64,000 nt of DNA from Gemmatimonadales bacterium (GTDB taxonomy: Bacteria; Gemmatimonadota; Gemmatimonadetes; Gemmatimonadales; GWC2-71-9), in NCBI GenBank assembly GCA_019637315.1, contig JAHBVU010000006.1, positions 62,001-126,000 of the forward strand, read 5' to 3'. Below the pieces are notes generated by a model. The model was not told where the DNA came from, did no database searches, and saw only the letters and a list, made by a program, of their open reading frames with translations. Position numbers and translations under genes: made by a program. Shown here piece by piece: positions 1,464 through 12,031 of the stretch; position 1 is the first letter of the stretch; each line of letters starts with the position of its first letter.

Positions 1464-2059
1464 CACACGCGATCCCAGACCGGGCGTTCACCTGGCTCGA
1501 GCTCGGCAAGCGCCACAGCGGCGGCGTGCCCCGTCCGAGCCGCATACCGCTCCGCAAAAGCAGCCAGCGAATCGGGGGAGCAGTCGCTCCGCGGCAACCG
1601 GAGTAACTCAACTGCGGCCTCGATCGCAGCGGCGCTGCCCTCGACTTCGACCAGAACGTCCATCCTCGGGTACCACTCGAGCCTGACAACCGCGCCTGCC
1701 ACCTCGTAGTACTCGACGAAGCGATCGATGGCGTGACACTCCCGGTAGCCGAGGGCCGCGACGAGCGACTCCGCCTCGACCACGTCGTCCGTCGTCAATT
1801 CGTGCTCGGCCCGCAGCTTGTAGCCGTCCTCGACCCGAACCGGACCCTTCCAACCGAGCTGACTGCTGACCGCCCCATCTGTCGCGCTGCGGCAGGTCCG
1901 AATCCGGAGTACCTCGCCGCGGTCAGTCAGCTCGCGCTCTCGATCATAGCGCCGATCGGCCAGCCAGCCGGTAAAACCGCGGACCGCCCCCGACCGTTCG
2001 AGCACTGCGCGGATCCGCTCAGGATCGGCGACCACAGCTTTGAGCTCGCGCTCGATCAC
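1463..2059 (-). CDS. CYTH-domain (triphosphate tunnel) protein
   Basis: CYTH proteins form a beta tunnel that binds triphosphates and divalent metals; members include class IV adenylate cyclases, thiamine triphosphatases and inorganic triphosphatases. The N-terminus holds the defining ExExK pattern (E3, E5, K7 in MIERELK). Further basic and acidic strand residues follow, such as RIRTC and KLRAEHEL, as expected for the tunnel walls. At 198 residues it is a single domain. The GTG start at 2059 overlaps the stop of the HAD gene (GTGA). The substrate cannot be told from sequence. The neighbouring HAD phosphatase could belong to the same pathway, but that is inference. Confidence 0.85.
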   Translation of the reverse strand: MIERELKAVVADPERIRAVLERSGAVRGFTGWLADRRYDRERELTDRGEVLRIRTCRSATDGAVSSQLGWKGPVRVEDGYKLRAEHELTTDDVVEAESLVAALGYRECHAIDRFVEYYEVAGAVVRLEWYPRMDVLVEVEGSAAAIEAAVELLRLPRSDCSPDSLAAFAERYAARTGHAAAVALAELEPGERPVWDRV

Positions 2060-2766
2060 GCCGACGTTCCGAGGATGGCAGCGGCCACTCGTTCGGTATC
2101 GCTCAGATCATCGAACACATGGTGCGCCCCTGCTTCCGCGAGATCCTCCGGGCGGTAACTCCCGGTTGCGACAGCCACGGACACGGCGCCGATGCCGTTG
2201 CCGCACGTCACATCAGCCGGGGTGTCACCAATGATGACCACGTCAGCCCCGGAGGGCACCCTGCCAAAATGGGACAGTGCTCGCTGCGCAGCGATGGCCG
2301 GCAACTCGGCCCGAACCGCATGGTCGCAACCATAGGCGCCAACCGCAAAGCCCTCCGGCGGTATCTCCACAGCCCTGAGCTTGATGGCAGCGCCACGCGC
2401 CACGTTGCCGGTGAGTAAACCAAGCACGATGCGCGTGTCGCCGCGGAGCGTTTCGAGCAGCGGGCGGACCCCCGGCATGACGGTTGCCTGATGAGCCGTT
2501 TCGGCCAGATCGCGTTCGAGATGGAACAGATAGCGGTCGATCACCCGACCAATCCGGTCGTGGTCGCGGGAGAGCCGATCGCCGCCGGCTTCGAGCAACT
2601 CCACCACGATCTGCGGATCGGTCTTGCCGTCGAAGCGGACGTGCTCGACCGCTGCCGCACCGATCGACGTCTCCTCGGCCAGGGCAGCCAGAATCGCACG
2701 CCGCCCCGCTCCGCCGGAGAGCAGCAGAGTACCGTCGATGTCAAAGAGCACCAGGCGCTTCGTCAC
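2056..2766 (-). CDS. HAD-superfamily phosphatase (phosphoglycolate phosphatase-like)
   Basis: This 236-residue protein has the HAD motif I FDIDGTLL with the nucleophile aspartate, a helical C1 cap, a motif II threonine in LLTGN, and motif IV in GDTPADVTCG, followed by the AVATGSY strand typical of Gph/pyrophosphatase PpaX-like enzymes. It probably hydrolyses a small cytosolic phosphate ester. GTG at 2766 is preferred because it forms a GTGA overlap with the zinc-ribbon gene and puts the nucleophile about ten residues from the start; the frame is open upstream without other support. A 2-phosphoglycolate role would fit the glycolate oxidase genes elsewhere in the window, but the two are not linked. 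Confidence 0.88.
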   Translation of the reverse strand: MTKRLVLFDIDGTLLLSGGAGRRAILAALAEETSIGAAAVEHVRFDGKTDPQIVVELLEAGGDRLSRDHDRIGRVIDRYLFHLERDLAETAHQATVMPGVRPLLETLRGDTRIVLGLLTGNVARGAAIKLRAVEIPPEGFAVGAYGCDHAVRAELPAIAAQRALSHFGRVPSGADVVIIGDTPADVTCGNGIGAVSVAVATGSYRPEDLAEAGAHHVFDDLSDTERVAAAILGTSA

Positions 2767-2912
2767 GAGGTCGCGTCCGGGCTGGCATCCGCGCAGGCAC
2801 GACAGACGGTCACACCCTGAAAAGTGCAAATCAAACAGACGAACGTTCCGCAGCGCTCGCACGGATACCCCTCCGAGGCGCGTTCCTCCCGACCGCAGGC
2901 TCGGCAGATCAT
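2763..2912 (-). CDS. Zinc-ribbon microprotein
   Basis: A 49-residue protein with eight cysteines in four CxxC pairs (CRAC, CERC, CLIC, CRAC), consistent with two treble-clef or zinc-ribbon knuckles. There is no enzymatic domain; it is likely a small zinc-binding adaptor of unknown role. ATG at 2912 is used here. A GTG at 2954 would add 14 residues and overlap the stop of the upstream regulator gene as GTGA, the same coupling seen throughout this operon, so it is an equally credible start. The stop overlaps the GTG of the HAD gene. Confidence 0.7.
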   Translation of the reverse strand: MICRACGREERASEGYPCERCGTFVCLICTFQGVTVCRACADASPDATS

Positions 2913-2950
2913 GGCATCCGTTACCGGTTTCTTCTGGCTTTCCACCTGGG

Positions 2951-4288
2951 TCACTCCGTGATGTTGTACAACTTGACCTTGTTGATCAGGGTTGCCCGGG
3001 AAATACCAAGTTCCTTGGCGGCACGGGTCCGGTTGCCACCATGATAGCGCAACGTCCGGTCGATGTGCTGATGCTCGAGCGCCTCCAGGGTCATCGGTGT
3101 ATGACGACGGTCGCCCATTCCCGATCGGGCCCGGAATTCCCCTGGAAGGTGCTCGACGTTGACCGCCGGCTGTCCCTTGGCCACCATCATGGCCCGCTCC
3201 AGCACGTTCTTCATCTCGCGAAGATTTCCCGGCCACGGATAGGCGAGGAACCGCTCGTGAACATCCACAGCCAGCGACTCGGGCCCATCGGGCAGCTGAG
3301 TCCTGAGATCCGCATGCAGCAGCGCCACCAGGCCAAGCCGGTCTTCCTGACTCCGCTCCCGAACCGGCGGAAAGGCCAAGGGCATCACACTGAGCCGGTA
3401 GAAGAGGTCCTCGCGGAAGGTCTCCGCCTCGACGGCCTCCGACAGATTGCGCCGGGTCGTGACCATCAGGCGGGTGTCCACGCTGATATCGTCGGTGCCA
3501 CCCAGGCGGCGGAAGCTGCGGGTTTCCAACACTCGCAACAGCTTGGGCTGGATTTCCTCGGGCAGGTCGCCGATTTCCCGCAACAGCACCGTCCCACCGT
3601 CGGCAAGCTCGAGCAGGCCGCGACGACGCTCGGTTGCTTCGACGAAGACCCCACGCTCGTGCCCGAAGAGCAGCGACTCGAGATAGGTCGCATTCATGCC
3701 GGTGCAGTTGACTTCGAGGAACGGCTGACCCGATCGGGGACCGAGATCGTGAATGATCCGTGCGGTCCAGGCCTTGCCGACACCGGTTTCACCGTTGAGC
3801 AGAAGCGTCGTCCGGTCACTCTGCGCCAGCAGCGAGACCTGCTGGACGAATTGCTTCATGACGCTCGAGGTGCCCAGCGAATCGAGTCCGTGGGGCGACG
3901 CGGTTCGCGCCAGCAATGCCGATGCAACCCGACGAGCCTTGGTCAGCAAGGCTGCACGCGAAGCCGCGGTCAGCACCACGTCGGCATCGCCGGCGGCATC
4001 GAGCACCATGGTCGCGCCGGAGCGCATGCCGAGAGCCACTCGTTCCGACCCGGGCTGATCACCGAAGAGCACGACCGGAACCTGCCCTGCGCCAAGCGTC
4101 TGGATCGCCTCCGGGGTGCCGAGCGACAGAGCCAGCAGCACGGCGTCAGGTCGAATGCGTGGCAGCGCACCGAGGGCTGCATCGACCGACAGCTCGCGCA
4201 CCACCTCGTGCCCCGCTTCCTCGAAACGGGCGCCAATGGCACGAAGCGTGGCAGGATCGTCATGTACCAGCAGGATCGAGTCCGTCAT
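2951..4288 (-). CDS. NtrC-like regulator with degenerate receiver and AAA motifs
   Basis: The 445-residue protein has the NtrC architecture: receiver (about 1-120), AAA+ domain (about 135-375) and Fis-type helix-turn-helix (about 402-445). Several key positions are altered. The receiver keeps D10/D11 but has Ala at 53 where the phosphorylated Asp belongs. Walker A is intact (GETGVGK, 166-172). Walker B reads LLREIG, so the Asp before E238 is Arg237. The GAFTGA loop that contacts sigma-54 reads GVFVEA (213-218). FREDLFYRL, which holds the arginine finger, and the HTH are intact. It probably binds DNA; sigma-54 activation and phosphorylation control look lost. It lies 75 bases after the lipid kinase gene and starts a run of coupled genes down to acpS. 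Confidence 0.9.
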   Translation of the reverse strand: MTDSILLVHDDPATLRAIGARFEEAGHEVVRELSVDAALGALPRIRPDAVLLALSLGTPEAIQTLGAGQVPVVLFGDQPGSERVALGMRSGATMVLDAAGDADVVLTAASRAALLTKARRVASALLARTASPHGLDSLGTSSVMKQFVQQVSLLAQSDRTTLLLNGETGVGKAWTARIIHDLGPRSGQPFLEVNCTGMNATYLESLLFGHERGVFVEATERRRGLLELADGGTVLLREIGDLPEEIQPKLLRVLETRSFRRLGGTDDISVDTRLMVTTRRNLSEAVEAETFREDLFYRLSVMPLAFPPVRERSQEDRLGLVALLHADLRTQLPDGPESLAVDVHERFLAYPWPGNLREMKNVLERAMMVAKGQPAVNVEHLPGEFRARSGMGDRRHTPMTLEALEHQHIDRTLRYHGGNRTRAAKELGISRATLINKVKLYNITE

Positions 4289-4363: not shown

Positions 4364-5257
4364 CTACACCAGCACCCGGATCGCCCCCGGCACCACCGTC
4401 GCCGTAAAGGGCGTTTCACCGTACAGATCACCATCGAACTGCGCCGGTTCGGCGGGGTGAGCCTCGACCCGCACCTGCCGGCCCCGCGCATAGGTCAAGT
4501 ATGGCGTCTCACCGGCGTCCAGGGCGACATTGGCCAGCGCCCGAACCAGGCTCCGCGCGGCTTCCCACGGAGTATCGGCATCGATGATCAGGACGTCGAA
4601 CAATCCGTCGTCGAGCGCCGTCTCGCGGTGGACCCGAACGAGGGGCGGAATCACCTCGCCACAATTGAGTACCATGACCAGTGCCGCATCGCGTTCGATG
4701 ACTCGTCCATCGACCGTTACGGCAAACTGGCGCGAGCGAATCTCGGGCATGACGCGAAACAACGAGTTGAAGTACCCGCCGATGCCCAGGCGGCGCTTCT
4801 CCTCTGTCCCTGTCCCGCCCATGACCCGCGCATCGGCGCCGGCCCCGCAAGCGACCCCGAAATACCGCTGTCCGACCGCATTCTCCAGCAAGCCGAGATC
4901 GATCCGCCTGGGGCGCCCGCGGAGAATCAGCTCAGCAGCCTGAACCGGGCCAAGCGGCAACCTCAGGTTGCCCGCCAGCACGTTTCCGGTACCGCCGGGA
5001 ACCAGCCCGAGCGCCACGTCCGTACCAACCAGCGCCGACGCCGCCTGCATCGTGGTGCCATCGCCGCCGAAGACGGCCACAACGTCGACCCCGCCGGCAA
5101 CCGCCTCCTTGGCGAACCGTCGGGTATCCTCGGCAACGGAAGTTTGACGCAAGTCGATCGACCACCCCGCCGCTTCAAAGACACGCCGTACCGTGTCGGC
5201 CACGTCCGGATTGGTCCGCGCCGCCACCGGATTGGCAATCAACAACGCTCGAGCCAT
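4364..5257 (-). CDS. Diacylglycerol/lipid kinase, YegS family
   Basis: The 297-residue protein matches the DAGK catalytic family, which phosphorylates diacylglycerol, sphingosine-like or related lipids with ATP at the inner membrane face. The nucleotide-binding signature GGDGT is near residue 84, followed by GLVPGGTGNVLA, which carries the second glycine-rich loop. A C-terminal beta-sandwich with ALDDGLFDV follows, as in YegS/DgkB. It starts 6 bases after the tamB stop, so it is co-transcribed with tamAB. Recycling of lipid near the transport machinery is a plausible link but is inferred. The natural lipid substrate is not readable from sequence. Confidence 0.92.
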   Translation of the reverse strand: MARALLIANPVAARTNPDVADTVRRVFEAAGWSIDLRQTSVAEDTRRFAKEAVAGGVDVVAVFGGDGTTMQAASALVGTDVALGLVPGGTGNVLAGNLRLPLGPVQAAELILRGRPRRIDLGLLENAVGQRYFGVACGAGADARVMGGTGTEEKRRLGIGGYFNSLFRVMPEIRSRQFAVTVDGRVIERDAALVMVLNCGEVIPPLVRVHRETALDDGLFDVLIIDADTPWEAARSLVRALANVALDAGETPYLTYARGRQVRVEAHPAEPAQFDGDLYGETPFTATVVPGAIRVLV

Positions 5258-5263
5258 CGCGTA

Positions 5264-8200
5264 CTAGTACTCCCGATCCCATTTGATGTCCGCGCCGAAC
5301 TGATACCGACTCGGCCGGATCAAGCTGGACGCCACCTGACTCAGGCAAGACTGCACCGGTTCCGCAGCGACCTGGACCTTCATCGTCGGGTGGAGTCGAT
5401 ATTCGAGGCTGGCGCCAAGATAGCGCCGGTTGAGTTCGACCTGGAGGCCCTCGACCACACATCCCCCAAGGCTCAGTGTCGCGAACAAGCGCCGGGTCAG
5501 CTGCCGACCGAGCGATAGTCGCGTCACCGAGCCGCCCGTGGCAAGCGCCGTGTTACCCTGAGCAAAGCCCGGGCTGATCTCGACCAGATCGAAGGGCGAA
5601 TCTTTGGAAGAAATCAGCGAGCGTTCGAGCTCCGAAGTCAGGACCTTGCTGGCCAGCGCCGCAACGACGCGACCCTGATCATCGAACGCGCCGCGTACAC
5701 CACTCGATACCGTGCCAAAGACGAGCAGCGATACCAGCTCGCGCTCCGGAAACTGCTGCCGACCAGGCTCACTCGTCAGCTGCAGGTTGGGCGCGAGCAG
5801 CGTTCCCGTAATCCGGGCAATGATCGGGTAATCGGCGGTCCCGGCCGTCGTCGATGACACCGTTCGCACCACATAGCGAGCAGTCAGATCGAGGCTGGCG
5901 TTCATGTCTGGCGTGTTGAAGTACCGGACGGTGCCCTGCTCGACTGTGAACGTCCGGGCTACCCCAAGCCCGGGCTTGAAGGTATAGGTCCCGCGCGGAA
6001 CCGTCAGTTCGCCACTGACGCGAAACTCGCTCCGGCCCGCGCGCCGACGCTCCTTGTTGACGGAGACCTGCCCTTCGAGCTGTACGTTGGCTTCGCTCGA
6101 ACGAAGCCAGACATCCTGGGCTACCCGGACGTTCAAATCACGAATCGTGAGCGAGTCGAGAAAACGGCTCTGGAACTGAGCTCCCAGACCCTCGGCCCGA
6201 AGCGCCGTCGTGTCGACGAGATCGAGGTTGGCCGGGTCCTCGAGGTTGATCACGTTCTTCGACAACAGGTCGGCAAAGTAGACCACACTGTTGGTCGCGC
6301 GGACGCTGCCACTCAGGACCGGCCGAACCAACGGCCCATCGAGCGCAACGTCACCAGTCGCCCGGAAGGTCAGATACTCGGGCACGTCGATCAGCAGGAA
6401 ATCCCGGGCGGATAGCGTGAGGCCGAGTACCGGCGTGGTCAGCCGCTCGAGCCGAACGGCGCCCCCGATCCGGGCCTCACCGATATCGCTGCGGATCACG
6501 GCCGAGTCCGCGATGACCGAGTCGCCTGCCAGACGGATTCGCCCGAACATCGGCCCGTAACTGACGCCCAGCCCGGGAACATAGACGGCCGCGTCTGCGA
6601 CGGTTACCTGTCCGCTCAAACGGGGAGCTTCCCAGGAACCCTCAACCTGCGCATCGAGCGCAAGCGTACCGACCACGCCTCGAAGATTCTGGGTCAGTGC
6701 TTCGATCACCGCGAGGTCGACGCTGTCTGCCTGACCCCGGATGACGAGTTCACCTGGAATCTGGCGGCGCGTGACGTCACCCATCGAAAGGTCCAGAGGC
6801 AGCCGCGCGTCGACGTCCAGAATCGGACGCCCGGTCCGCCAGAAACTCAGATTGCTCTGCAGCAGGCGACTGTCATAGTTGAAGACGGCCCGCACCAGCG
6901 GAGCTTTGACCTGCCCCACGACCGGTCCGGTCAGCGTAGCTGACCCCCGGAAGGTAGGCGACTCGAGCGTGCCCGCAGCGCGGAGGTCGACGCCGAGCGA
7001 GCCGCCGATCCCTGCCGTGTCACGCTGGGCCAGGGCGTAGAGGTCACGCAGCGAAATCCCGGATGCCTGCAATCGGACCCGCCCTTCGCTTCGGCCCGGT
7101 AGAACACCTTCCATTCGGATCGAACCCGAGCCGTCATCCGTGGCAATCAGCACGGTATCGGCTTCCATCACGCTGTCGACGGTAAACTGGGCTGACCGCT
7201 GCAGCTGCCACTGCCGGCCAAGCAGTCCGACGGCCAGTGAATCGACCTGCAGGATCCGTACGCTGTCCGCCCCTACCCGCCACTGTCCCCGCGCTGCAAC
7301 CCGGGCCGCCGTTCCGCTCGCCCCGCGAATGTTCCAGCCAAAGTCGGCCGGTGTGCCCAGCAACCCAGCCTCCAGGTCGGCGAAACGGAGCTTGCCATGC
7401 GCCAGCGTGTCGGCCGAGATGGTGAGCCCGAAGACCAGGCTGTCCGGGGCCGCCCCCGCGGCTTCGAGCTTGACGGTCCCGAGCCGCACCTGGTTGCGCA
7501 GCCAGGCAGCGGAATCAAGACGGATCTCGGCGAGAGCATTCCAAGCCTCGAGCGAGCCGTCGAGCGAGAACGTTCCCCGAGCCCGACCGCTCATCAGGTC
7601 TTCCTCGATCAGATCGCTCCGACGCAAACCGGCCAGTTCGGCCGCGAGACTGTCGAACGGCGCGAGATTGAGCGCCGCAATCGTGCCTTTGAGGCTGCCC
7701 CGATGCGGCTCGGACCAACCGAAGGTACCCGCCAGGTAGGCACCACCACCGGGCCAGACCACGCCAGCCGTGTCAACCGTGATGAGGCTGTCACGGATCG
7801 CGAGACGAGCCCAAGCGGAGTCGAGAATGAAGCTGCGCACCGAGCTGCGACGCAGCGCCAGATCGATCACGGCGTCCGGGGCCACCGCCGAATCGATCAC
7901 GCCGGTCAGCACCGCCTGTCCGGCCAGACTGGTGGTCGGCCCGGTCGGCGTCAGCATCGCGAGGTTGGCCCGGTCGAAGCTGACTCGGAGACCATCCGCA
8001 CCGAAACGCGGCGGCTCCAGGCTGGTACGCCCGATGAACTGATACGCACCGATTCCGCCGGCCAGACCACCTTCGACCCAGAGCGAGTCGAGATAGCCCA
8101 GCATCCTGAGGGAGCCGGCCACCATGCCCTGCAGGGTCAGCGTCGGGAAACTGCCCCGGATGCCGTCGAAGGCCAGGGTGTCGACCGTCAGGTCCGCATC

Positions 8201-9736
8201 GAGCCCCAGCGTCTCGGTTCGAGTATCCAGACGCGCCCGGCCACCGAGCACGCTGCGCGGTTTGGTCCCGTCCACGTGCTCGACCCGCCCCTGATAGGTA
8301 ACGTTCTGCCAGGGGCCGTCGAGGCTGCCCGCCAGACGCAGGCGCCCGTCGAGCGCAACCGCCGGAGTGACCAGGCGAATGGTCCGCAAATCGAGGTCCG
8401 CATACGGAATCCGCGTCTGCTGAAAGACCATGCCCTCGGCGCCTCCCATGGACAGCTCGCCTTCGATGGTGAGGCGGTTGCTTCCCCCGTCCGGCACCCT
8501 GCTGTCCTGAAAGAGCCAGTCCGCGCTGATCGTCATGGCATCGAAGAAACCGGTGGCCTGCAGCGGGCCGGACAATCGACCAGCCAGGGGGAGCGTGTCG
8601 AGGAACGGTCGCACCGCCTCCAGGTCGAGCGATTGAAGGTCGAGCGTCAGATCTCGGAAGCCGAGCCCCCGATAAACGTCCACCATTGCCACCATCCGGC
8701 CGCGGACCCGGCTGCCGTCACCCGCGACATCGAGATCCCGCACGTCGTACACGGAACGGCTCCCGGCCGGTGACGTCGCCGTCACCTGTCCCCGCCCGCG
8801 CAGCGCCGGGAAGTTGGGTGAGATCCACCGCAGGTCGACCAGGTCGAGTGTCGGCGCCTCGAGGCGGAAGTTGTAGAGGATGGTATCGCGCGGCCAATCG
8901 ATCCGGCCGCCGCCCCGCACGATCGTATTGGGCAGCGCGGCCCGCTCGACCTCAAAGAGCAGACTGTCTCTGCCTTGTGTCAGGGTAGCCTTGAGGTCGC
9001 GAACGGTAATTTCCGGATCGCTGATCGACGCCGTCAGCGAATCGATGGCCATCGAGAACGGCGCGTTGTCGGGTGACGAGATGGCCAGCAGCCGGAAGCG
9101 TGCGGTCAGCCCTCGCAACGTGCGCTCGATCATCAACGCATTGCCGGGACGTTCCGCAAGCTCGATCCGGCGGCCCGGCTTGGCTCGCTCAGCGGCGAGC
9201 GCGGAGTCTCTCTGAGCGGCGGTCCGCAGCCGGCCATCGGGGTTCCAGGGCAGCCGGATCGTCACGTGAGCGCGATCGAGCGCCAGATCCTCGATCAGGA
9301 CCAGCGGCTTGGTCCGCTTGACGGTGTCGGTCGAGGGCAAACCGAGACCGAATATCTCTTCGTAGTTGAGCCGCCCCCCACGATGCTGGACGATCTCGAG
9401 CCGGGCATCGCTGACGCGGGCATCGCGAAAGACGAAACGTCGAGCCAGAAAGTCCCCGAGCCGGTAACCAACCTCGATCTTGGAGGCATCGACCAGCAGT
9501 GCGCCAGCCGTGTCACGGATCACCACCGAATCGAGAGTCAGGTCGCCCAGGAAGTTGCCTCGAATCCCTCCGATCCGGATCGAACCCTCGACCAGCCGGG
9601 CCGACTCCTCGGTGAGCACCCGCGCCAATAAGGCCCGGCCGGGCGCCAGCGTCGTGAGCGCCGCACCCGTGCCAAGCACGGCCGCCAGTACCGAAACGGC
9701 AAACACGAAGACGGTGCGCACCAGGCTGCGGAGCAT
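5264..9736 (-). CDS. tamB: TamB-family translocation and assembly module protein
   Basis: This 1490-residue protein has one N-terminal membrane segment (about residues 6-30), a very long run of amphipathic beta-strand repeats with alternating hydrophobic residues and Gly/Asp turns, and a C-terminal DUF490/TamB domain. TamB-like proteins (AsmA superfamily) span the periplasm as a hydrophobic groove and are implicated in phospholipid transport and in outer-membrane protein assembly with TamA. ATG at 9736 is chosen because the open frame upstream lies inside the tamA-like gene and the ATG gives a clean membrane anchor; TGATG joins the two genes. Length is within the usual range for the family. 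The downstream neighbour is a lipid kinase. Confidence 0.93.
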   Translation of the reverse strand: MLRSLVRTVFVFAVSVLAAVLGTGAALTTLAPGRALLARVLTEESARLVEGSIRIGGIRGNFLGDLTLDSVVIRDTAGALLVDASKIEVGYRLGDFLARRFVFRDARVSDARLEIVQHRGGRLNYEEIFGLGLPSTDTVKRTKPLVLIEDLALDRAHVTIRLPWNPDGRLRTAAQRDSALAAERAKPGRRIELAERPGNALMIERTLRGLTARFRLLAISSPDNAPFSMAIDSLTASISDPEITVRDLKATLTQGRDSLLFEVERAALPNTIVRGGGRIDWPRDTILYNFRLEAPTLDLVDLRWISPNFPALRGRGQVTATSPAGSRSVYDVRDLDVAGDGSRVRGRMVAMVDVYRGLGFRDLTLDLQSLDLEAVRPFLDTLPLAGRLSGPLQATGFFDAMTISADWLFQDSRVPDGGSNRLTIEGELSMGGAEGMVFQQTRIPYADLDLRTIRLVTPAVALDGRLRLAGSLDGPWQNVTYQGRVEHVDGTKPRSVLGGRARLDTRTETLGLDADLTVDTLAFDGIRGSFPTLTLQGMVAGSLRMLGYLDSLWVEGGLAGGIGAYQFIGRTSLEPPRFGADGLRVSFDRANLAMLTPTGPTTSLAGQAVLTGVIDSAVAPDAVIDLALRRSSVRSFILDSAWARLAIRDSLITVDTAGVVWPGGGAYLAGTFGWSEPHRGSLKGTIAALNLAPFDSLAAELAGLRRSDLIEEDLMSGRARGTFSLDGSLEAWNALAEIRLDSAAWLRNQVRLGTVKLEAAGAAPDSLVFGLTISADTLAHGKLRFADLEAGLLGTPADFGWNIRGASGTAARVAARGQWRVGADSVRILQVDSLAVGLLGRQWQLQRSAQFTVDSVMEADTVLIATDDGSGSIRMEGVLPGRSEGRVRLQASGISLRDLYALAQRDTAGIGGSLGVDLRAAGTLESPTFRGSATLTGPVVGQVKAPLVRAVFNYDSRLLQSNLSFWRTGRPILDVDARLPLDLSMGDVTRRQIPGELVIRGQADSVDLAVIEALTQNLRGVVGTLALDAQVEGSWEAPRLSGQVTVADAAVYVPGLGVSYGPMFGRIRLAGDSVIADSAVIRSDIGEARIGGAVRLERLTTPVLGLTLSARDFLLIDVPEYLTFRATGDVALDGPLVRPVLSGSVRATNSVVYFADLLSKNVINLEDPANLDLVDTTALRAEGLGAQFQSRFLDSLTIRDLNVRVAQDVWLRSSEANVQLEGQVSVNKERRRAGRSEFRVSGELTVPRGTYTFKPGLGVARTFTVEQGTVRYFNTPDMNASLDLTARYVVRTVSSTTAGTADYPIIARITGTLLAPNLQLTSEPGRQQFPERELVSLLVFGTVSSGVRGAFDDQGRVVAALASKVLTSELERSLISSKDSPFDLVEISPGFAQGNTALATGGSVTRLSLGRQLTRRLFATLSLGGCVVEGLQVELNRRYLGASLEYRLHPTMKVQVAAEPVQSCLSQVASSLIRPSRYQFGADIKWDREY

Positions 9737-11859
9737 CAGAAGGCCTGCCCGACCGAAACCTGCAGGTTGAACTTGCCGGTCCGGGGCTTTCGGTAGTCGC
9801 TCCGCACCAGCGTCAGTTCTTCGTCCAGCAGGGAATAGAGACCACCAGCTGCGTAAGGAGCGTTGGTATAGGCGATGTCGGCACGCATCGGGCCCAGCGG
9901 TGTGCCGAAACGAATCCCGATGCCCGGGGTCACCCGGAAGGCAGCCCCCGACGCGAGCGAGCCGCCCCGCTCCCAGACCGAACCGGCATCGACAAACAGC
10001 GCCCACCGCAACCGTCCGCCCAGCAACGGCGATGGCAAACGCAGCTCCAGGTTGCCGACCGCGAGCGTGTTTCCACCGATCGGGGCCACCTGCACCGAGT
10101 CGGCATCGATCACGGATCCGTCCTCATTCAGGTTGCCTGCGGAGGTGACGTAAACCACGGGGCCAAGTTCGTTCCGGTCGTAACCCCGAACGTCATTGGC
10201 CCCTCCGGCATAGAAGCGCTGATCGGGCGGAATGAAACTGCCCTCGCCGGCACCGAGACGAAGCCGCGGCGACACTGCGGCGCCCGCCTTGACGTGCGCC
10301 GCTAGCACAACTTCGCGACCGAGGGGCGTATACCAGGAGGCCTCTCCGACCAGCCGCGTGAACTCGGACAACCGGCTCGACCCGACCAGAGGGGAACTGA
10401 CCGTTGCCTCGAGACTATAGAAGGACCCCCGGGTCGGATCGAGGGGGTTGTTGACCCGCTGCCGACTGACCGTGCCGATCAGGGATGCGGCCAGACGTCG
10501 CTCCCGGAGCTGTGCAATGTCATCCTGCCGGCACGCCAGGAAGAAAGCGCAGAAGCTGACGGCAGTTGCCTGAGTCGATCCGTAGGCCAGTCGATAGGTG
10601 AGCGAGAACGGCACCCCCCGCTGACTCTCCCGCGTGAACGTGACGCTGGTGCCAATTTCGTCGCGCAGGTAGATCCGGTACTCCGACCGTCGCTCGCCGA
10701 ATACCGTGCCCGTAATCGCGTTGGACGGCGAGAGGAATGCGGGCCGACGAATCGACGCCGAGAGGGCGTAGTTGACTCTGCTCGATCCGATGGTATCGGC
10801 TTCCAGGCCGCTGCAGACCGTCGAAGCAAGCGGGTCGAGCGCCACACCCAGCTTCGACACCGAGCCGTTGAAATCGAGCTGCCGACCGCGCCCGCCCACG
10901 TTGCGCGCAGTCCACCCGGCGTTGGCACGAAAGCAGTCGTTCGTGGCAATACCCAGCCCGGACCGGACCCGGAAATGGGGCCCCTCCTGAACCTGAATCG
11001 TAAGCGGAACCGCCGGGTCGCCCATGGTAAAACGTGTCGTGTCGATGTCGACCGTCGCGAAGCGAAAGAGACCCGACTGATAGAGATTGAGCTGGCTGCG
11101 ATAGATGTCGGCGTATCGAAAGGTCCGCCCCGGTCGCGCAGCAAGCAGCGACCGGACAAATGATGAATCGACCGATTCGGTACCCTCGATCCGAATCGGG
11201 CCGAATACCGCAGGCGCTCCGGGATCAGCCACCAGCTCGATGTCGACGATTCGCGCCTCCCGATCGAGATCACGCCGACCAAGCAGCACCGTCGCCGATG
11301 GATAGCCACGATCCCAGAGACGACTCTGGATCGTGTCGGCGGTCGCCTCGAGCCGGACATACCGGTCGTAGGGCATCCCGACCTGCAGCGGCAGATCGCG
11401 TACGATCCGGGGCCGATCCGGCAGTGAGTCCAGTCCCGAGATCGTCAGCGATCGAACCCGTACCGGCTCACCTTCCGTGATCAGGAAGGTGATGTACGCA
11501 TCCGTTTCCGTGCGGACGATCGAGGTATCGATCTGCACATCCATGAACCCGTTGAGCTGGTACAGCAGGCGCAAGCGAGCCAGGTCGACACGCAGTTCCC
11601 GCTCATTGAGACGACGGCGCTCGCCCAAGCCTAGCCAGCTGACCATCGAGTAGCGAACAAAGAAACTCGAATTGGTCGTGGCGATCGCGGCCTCGAGCGT
11701 CACCGCATCGAGCGATCGATTGCCCTTGAACGCGAGATGCCGAATCACCAATCCTTGATCCTGCGCATCGAGGTCGACCGCTGCAAATCCCAGCACCAGG
11801 GCGAGCGCCAGACCCCGGCCGATCCGGCGCAAACCCGGAACTGCCAAAATCCGCAACAT
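9736..11859 (-). CDS. BamA/TamA-family outer-membrane protein
   Basis: This is a 707-residue Omp85 protein. A signal peptide (about residues 1-33, ending near LDAQ) is followed by three to four POTRA-like domains, then a 16-strand barrel. The L6 loop motif VRGY is present in GANDVRGYDRNELGP, and the chain ends in phenylalanine, as expected for a beta-signal. Three features favour TamA over the essential BamA: direct coupling to tamB, fewer POTRA domains, and the absence here of skp, lpxD or fabZ. ATG at 11859 follows a GGCGGGG ribosome-binding site; an ATG at 11910 is also open. The genes diverge from dacB. Confidence 0.9.
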   Translation of the reverse strand: MLRILAVPGLRRIGRGLALALVLGFAAVDLDAQDQGLVIRHLAFKGNRSLDAVTLEAAIATTNSSFFVRYSMVSWLGLGERRRLNERELRVDLARLRLLYQLNGFMDVQIDTSIVRTETDAYITFLITEGEPVRVRSLTISGLDSLPDRPRIVRDLPLQVGMPYDRYVRLEATADTIQSRLWDRGYPSATVLLGRRDLDREARIVDIELVADPGAPAVFGPIRIEGTESVDSSFVRSLLAARPGRTFRYADIYRSQLNLYQSGLFRFATVDIDTTRFTMGDPAVPLTIQVQEGPHFRVRSGLGIATNDCFRANAGWTARNVGGRGRQLDFNGSVSKLGVALDPLASTVCSGLEADTIGSSRVNYALSASIRRPAFLSPSNAITGTVFGERRSEYRIYLRDEIGTSVTFTRESQRGVPFSLTYRLAYGSTQATAVSFCAFFLACRQDDIAQLRERRLAASLIGTVSRQRVNNPLDPTRGSFYSLEATVSSPLVGSSRLSEFTRLVGEASWYTPLGREVVLAAHVKAGAAVSPRLRLGAGEGSFIPPDQRFYAGGANDVRGYDRNELGPVVYVTSAGNLNEDGSVIDADSVQVAPIGGNTLAVGNLELRLPSPLLGGRLRWALFVDAGSVWERGGSLASGAAFRVTPGIGIRFGTPLGPMRADIAYTNAPYAAGGLYSLLDEELTLVRSDYRKPRTGKFNLQVSVGQAF

Positions 11860-12031
11860 GGCCCCGCCAAATGCGGGCCGAAACCGGTTCCAAGCCGAGC
11901 ATGACCGCACTCGCTAAATCTAGTCTACTGTTGACGTTACGCCATGCTGTGCTGAGATTCCACCGGCCTGACGCATGGCGGCTCGGCCGTCTGACTTCCG
12001 CGCATGCACCCCAAAACGACTGACTAGGTAC

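Follow-up and report, generated by a model that had tools for sequence, protein, structure and literature searches.

In one lineage of Gemmatimonadota, a conserved NtrC-type regulator of the tamA-tamB-yegS cluster has lost its phosphorylation residues and probably no longer works through sigma-54

The window, by which we mean the whole 64-kb stretch of a Gemmatimonadales genome that was analysed, contains a complete open reading frame with an ATG start that encodes a 445-aa regulator, lying in a cluster with tamA-like, tamB-like and lipid kinase genes (Table 1). The protein matched the Pfam families Sigma54_activat (1.8e-54), AAA+ lid and HTH_8 (4.2e-13). A receiver family was not reported in this Pfam search of the 445 residues; in the AlphaFold model (mean pLDDT 88.6), the five strands of the first domain follow the order seen in the alpha/beta fold of receivers. 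The solved folds nearest to the model were those of NtrX, NtrC1, FleQ and VpsR.

Table 1. Features of the regulator gene and its cluster, with positions in the window
Feature	Position	Strand	Basis
tamA-like Omp85 gene, first in cluster; true start probably downstream of that listed	9736..11910	-	NCBIfam BamA/TamA, synteny
Conserved promoter-region element upstream of tamA, TGGCGTAACGTCAACAGTAGACTAGATTTAG...GGTCATG	11900..11945	-	Identity in 11 genomes
tamB-like gene; overlaps tamA, listed start probably too far upstream	5264..10006	-	NCBIfam TamB 4e-17, synteny
YegS/diacylglycerol-kinase-family lipid kinase, directly upstream of regulator	4364..5257	-	Pfam DAGK_cat 1.7e-26, synteny
Degenerate NtrC-type regulator (REC-AAA+-Fis HTH)	2951..4288	-	ORF, Pfam, AlphaFold model
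Receiver domain, aa 1-118; fold predicted intact, phosphorylation residues lost	3935..4288	-	Alignment and model
A53 codon (phosphorylatable Asp in kin)	4130..4132	-	Alignment
A98 codon (conserved receiver Lys in kin)	3995..3997	-	Alignment
AAA+ core, aa 139-304	3377..3874	-	Pfam and model
Walker A GETGVGKA, aa 166-173, intact	3770..3793	-	K172 conservation
Loop 1 GVFVEA, aa 213-218, replacing GAFT[G/D]A	3635..3652	-	Alignment; T4V inactive class
R237 codon (Walker B Asp in kin)	3578..3580	-	Fixed in ten-species clade
R279 codon (sensor-I Asn in kin)	3452..3454	-	Alignment
Arginine-finger segment TFREDLFYRL, intact; R292, D294, R298 conserved	3392..3421	-	Alignment
Fis-type HTH, aa 400-439, near-invariant NRTRAAKELGISRATLINKVK	2972..3091	-	Pfam and within-genus identity
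Cys-rich zinc-ribbon-like protein, ~60 aa, directly downstream of regulator; start codon inferred	2763..2945	-	Homologues in syntenic loci
HAD-family hydrolase, next in cluster	2056..2862	-	Pfam, synteny

Most orthologs of the regulator share its neighbours, namely tamA, tamB, the YegS-type lipid kinase, the small zinc-ribbon-like protein, the HAD hydrolase and further genes. An earlier reading of the DNA, made from the sequence alone, had placed the gene in an envelope operon, and this location holds in three families; these neighbours are missing in deeper relatives from other families. Across the Gemmatimonadota, a histidine kinase gene, where it occurs, has its place between the lipid kinase gene and the regulator (tamA-tamB-yegS-[kinase]-EBP-Zn ribbon). 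Homologues of the zinc-ribbon-like protein, which gave no family match, lie directly 3' of the regulator in nearly all syntenic loci. The regulator is probably inherited vertically within this cluster. The same conserved cluster also encodes, at 1463-2059 on the minus strand of the window, a CYTH-type protein with weak similarity, below the cut-off, to the class IV adenylate cyclase CyaB.

The sequence-only reading had described A53 for the phosphorylatable Asp, R237 for the Walker B Asp and GVFVEA for GAFTGA in loop 1, alongside an intact Walker A, arginine fingers and HTH. The three changes are exactly as claimed, and the intact elements were found as well (K172, R292, R298 and the HTH_8 match), as was an intact sensor II (R357). 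Two further losses became apparent, since the conserved receiver lysine is replaced by A98 and the sensor-I asparagine by R279. Walker B reads R237-E238, so that its glutamate is kept. In the loop, the change of Thr to Val at position 4 belongs to an inactive class (PMC3162934). Among 55 intact orthologs and relatives, D53, K98 and D237 are each present in 55/55 sequences and N279 in 52/55; the changes in the regulator are thus not due to chance.

When set beside group I of the sigma-54-dependent bacterial enhancer-binding proteins (bEBPs) of the NtrC family, the regulator retains the Walker A lysine, the arginine fingers and HTH_8, with rpoN present in the genome, and lacks a functional GAFTGA loop, the Walker B aspartate, the sensor-I asparagine and the receiver Asp and Lys. 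Its bEBP architecture without a functional GAFTGA is that by which sigma-54-independent bEBPs are recognised in sequence, and a receiver fold (in the model) with A53 and A98 is that of a pseudo-receiver.

Orthologs were usually present in one copy per genome and separated from paralogs by a wide score gap. We compared 121 sequences, comprising orthologs and relatives and about a dozen outgroup paralogs, from genomes that were mostly draft assemblies, largely metagenomic. The genomes were grouped into the window's family (f1) and other families of its order (f2, f3). Three states were distinguished. In the intact state (55/121), D53, K98, the Walker B aspartate and a loop of GAFTDA or a similar sequence are present; GAFTDA was scored as functional because Gly-to-Asp at position 5 occurs in validated activators (PMC3162934). 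In the second state (51/121), the loop is lost while the receiver Asp and the Walker motifs are kept. This state takes in nearly all f2 sequences, which carry varied substitutions and indels, with an acceptable loop in one f2 sequence only. The third state consists of the window's clade, with changes in receiver, loop and Walker B alike, plus a few isolated sequences with other losses. On a quick ortholog tree, built with the trait columns left out and containing long branches (L161, L149 and L158), the loop state changes at least eight times, a count that depends on a cut-off largely following PMC3162934. The lysine K172 is present in all but one of the 121 sequences. In the second state, the Walker motifs and arginine fingers are nearly fixed and the sensor-I asparagine is found in 4/51 sequences; loop loss is followed by relaxation in the loop-coupled portion of the ATPase. 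L161, L158 and L148 are isolated orthologs on very long branches with more losses (Pro in Walker B of L161, no Walker A lysine in L148), and are possibly independent decays.

By a motif search, 25 loop-lost loci have a histidine kinase ORF whose end lies immediately upstream of the regulator; the receiver is intact in 24 of them. Pfam searches with seven kinase ORFs, drawn from loop-lost loci, intact loci and loci of the R237 clade, classed each as a GAF/PAS or hybrid kinase. Judged from gene order and motifs, loop-lost loci with an intact receiver and an adjacent kinase resemble full two-component systems that lack the sigma-54 loop. In the window's clade, a search for an adjacent kinase found none except in G006 (L136), where a GAF histidine kinase (6794-8842) lies directly beside a regulator whose receiver is without the phosphorylatable Asp.

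An alignment across the Gemmatimonadota, which had been suggested as a check of the changes, showed that they are common to the whole genus of the window (six genomes) and to a sister genus (G007), and that R237 is present in ten species, namely the six genus members, G007, G006, G022 and G033. R237 is the only position at which the ten share one fixed residue and the intact sequences another. E206L, T216V and N279R are fixed in 7/10 species of the clade, and in 7/10 the glutamate-switch asparagine N194, equivalent to PspF N64 (PMC4132715), has become Arg; the window's protein keeps Asn here. Retained in the clade are K172 (10/10), R298 (10/10) and R292 (9/10). Loop 1 is altered in all members of the genus with its length and Phe kept, and related clades have deletions in it.

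Within the genus, the HTH is 94-100% identical, with a dN/dS of 0-0.055, the AAA+ domain has a dN/dS of 0.07-0.18, and the receiver one of 0.14-0.24, as compared to 0.03-0.08 in intact sisters; these values are well below 1, and the ratios are rough because several pairs have a dS near or above 1. The reading frame is open in all six genus genomes and in four further genera. Neither the relaxed selection over the whole protein nor the broken frames that mark a pseudogene were found. It had been argued beforehand that intact motifs in close relatives would point to a recently decaying copy or to sequence errors. The sister genera are indeed intact; however, the changes are clade-wide and under purifying selection, and recent decay or sequence error is thereby excluded. 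Because the loss is common to the whole lineage and recurs in relatives, it appears from these comparisons that the gene encodes a re-purposed DNA-binding regulator and not a broken one.

Sigma-54 itself has not been lost from these bacteria. The window's genome encodes rpoN, which was among the points proposed for checking, as do 160/163 genomes of the order, and it encodes seven other NtrC-type proteins with acceptable loops and one other degenerate member. Loss of rpoN as the cause of loop loss was therefore ruled out. The other degenerate protein (L009, G000:C18:39763-43245) has no GAFTGA-like loop, EE in Walker B and an abnormal arginine-finger motif (VDLAERI).

We also considered the sequences from which the cluster and the regulator might be transcribed. 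The gap between yegS and the regulator showed no conserved site when inspected by eye, and a promoter site upstream of the regulator in f2 was rejected, as a histidine kinase ORF abuts the regulator there in many loci. Upstream of tamA, no -24/-12 element was found in 36 loci, and a sigma-54 promoter at this position was accordingly rejected; TGGCAC-N5-TTGC with one mismatch allowed was absent from the 64-kb window. Most f1 and f3 loci have a TTGAC box upstream of tamA, which in f1 lies ~48 bp upstream of a conserved GTCAAT; in f1 loci such as L140, L144 and L145, TTGACA is followed by GTCAAT 48 bp downstream at fixed spacing. In one f1 clade, tamA may start at the TTG of GTCAATTG, which would give a nearly leaderless message.

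The window's clade and its sister clade share instead a rebuilt element (window 11900-11945), with the consensus TGGCGTAAC-N-C-N2-TCA-N4-AC-N-AGATTTAGA-N3-TG-N-GGTCAA, in which the second C and a few other positions hold in at least 9/11 genomes. Identity over the element is 74%, versus 28-30% in the flanks (11 genomes, two sister clades). The rebuilt promoter of the window has no match to the sigma-70 consensus. With up to 3 mismatches allowed, the genome contains a single copy, and this ruled the element out as a genome-wide promoter class. The ortholog tree had suggested a convergent promoter change in two loop-lost clades. This was withdrawn, because a YegS-TamB-TamA tree joins the two clades, both without the loop, as sisters (support 99), and the promoter rebuild is then one event. 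Promoter rebuild and loop loss may thus be one ancestral change, and as a single event their link is a correlation only. Elsewhere, the loop-lost pair L274 and L275 has kept the TTGAC box.

NtrC proteins that act independently of sigma-54 have been described in R. capsulatus and Caulobacter, and VpsR is a further case (PMC10274813). R. capsulatus NtrC, like the regulator, is a REC-AAA+-HTH protein without the GAFTGA loop; it acts on sigma-70 polymerase and needs ATP binding but not hydrolysis (PMC10274813). However, it is a nitrogen regulator with the kinase NtrB and a phosphorylated receiver, whereas the regulator is without the receiver and Walker B aspartates. Caulobacter NtrC, which also has its GAFTGA loop deleted, acts at and represses sigma-70-type promoters (PMC10274813). 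It depends on both Walker motifs and, for full activation, on D56; in the regulator, the Asp is gone from the D56 and Walker B positions. VpsR, without GAFTGA, acts at sigma-70 promoters and needs neither phosphorylation nor ATP (PMC10274813). The regulator matches VpsR at the level of structure, but they are only 22-23% identical, and VpsR has its own Asp for phosphate sensing, binds c-di-GMP and lies in a different operon. By analogy, the regulator may work most like R. capsulatus NtrC and VpsR. TyrR and DhaR have N-terminal input domains that differ from that of the regulator, and neither these proteins nor HupR are expected to be members of its syntenic family. All three are homologs of bEBPs for which dependence on sigma-70 following changes in the loop has been reported (PMC3162934). 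Other pseudo-receivers share the receiver fold without phosphorylation residues (PMC12632262); in contrast to these, the regulator has undergone the loss within an otherwise phosphorylatable ortholog family, some members of which have a kinase gene adjacent. A literature search, conducted mostly outside subscription journals, found no paper on this regulator family.

We consider it probable that the regulator no longer works via sigma-54, that in the window's lineage it has also lost control by phosphorylation and most likely ATP hydrolysis, and that it acts on sigma-70-type promoters. The sequence-only reading had likewise proposed lost sigma-54 coupling with retained DNA binding, and the altered loop and conserved HTH support this. 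The protein would bind DNA via its near-invariant Fis-type HTH and form ATP-bound oligomers, for which Walker A, the arginine fingers and sensor II are kept, without hydrolysing ATP; it is possible that the Walker B Arg abolishes ATP binding as well, and a sigma-54 route by way of hetero-oligomers with paralogs keeps some probability. Its effect on sigma-70-type promoters, whether activation or repression, would come about through direct contact or through occlusion, as with R. capsulatus NtrC and VpsR. The best candidate target is the promoter of its own tam operon, through which we infer autoregulation. Control of envelope or lipid genes may follow from this, the one hint being the rebuilt tam operon promoter; this link goes back to one event in evolution, and the promoter change could be tied to a different regulator. 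A more specific and, in our judgement, unlikely variant is that the AAA+ pocket, once a site of Mg-ATP hydrolysis, has become a hydrolysis-dead site for a ligand, with new arginines lining it. Arginines were gained in the pocket of the ten-species clade at Walker B (10/10), sensor I (7/10) and the glutamate switch (7/10, the window's protein not among them). In place of phosphorylation, the regulator would thus sense a bound nucleotide or another anionic ligand, and the tam/lipid-kinase envelope operon would be under its control via a promoter rebuilt in the same ancestor.

Among the alternatives, a DNA-occupying repressor or anti-activator, which would engage no polymerase productively and would block other regulators or compete with them, is a reasonable though lesser possibility. 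Constraint on the protein is strongest in the DNA-binding domain; erosion has affected both loop 1, as the activation surface, and the residues for ATPase coupling; and Caulobacter NtrC provides a precedent for repression of sigma-70 promoters without GAFTGA (PMC10274813). However, purifying selection still acts on the AAA+ core, arginine fingers and Walker A, which exceeds the needs of a mere blocker. The same retained interface residues could serve in mixed oligomers, in which the regulator would be an inhibitory or regulatory subunit of an intact sigma-54 activator of the same cell, and seven such activators are available. We think this improbable, and the dominant partner of another activator envisaged from the sequence alone likewise found no support: even the nearest paralog of the same genome shares only ~36% identity and carries another HTH. 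Moreover, the family occurs in single copy and in synteny, and no gene for a partner activator lies alongside.

It is very unlikely that sigma-54 activity is retained via an unusual loop. This has been suggested for Desulfovibrio DVUA0100, an activator with GVATGV for which a sigma-54 regulon was predicted (PMC4641369), and loop length and Phe are kept in the window's genus. Nevertheless, the Walker B Asp and sensor-I Asn are also gone, the operon has no -24/-12 element upstream, and related clades carry loop deletions. Least credible of all is a decaying gene or sequencing artefact. Intact motifs in sister genera and a receiver that evolves faster than theirs could be read in this way, but the frame is open throughout the genus (six genomes) and in four further genera, ten species have R237 fixed, the HTH is nearly identical within the genus and dN/dS lies far below 1 over the protein.

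Enhancer-binding proteins that lack GAFTGA and act on sigma-70 polymerase were already known. What is new is the fixed Walker B Asp-to-Arg change, the joint occurrence of all losses in a protein that selection still maintains, and the recurrence of losses across the phylum within one mostly syntenic family. The automatic annotation 'sigma-54-dependent regulator' is probably wrong for about half of the family. Within a single ortholog family, all stages are found, from intact proteins, through those that have lost the loop with receiver, ATPase motifs and often the kinase kept, to those in which loop, phosphorylation site and hydrolysis site are gone and DNA binding is kept. The family thus forms a naturally graded set on which the departure of enhancer-binding proteins from sigma-54, so far known from scattered examples, could be tested.
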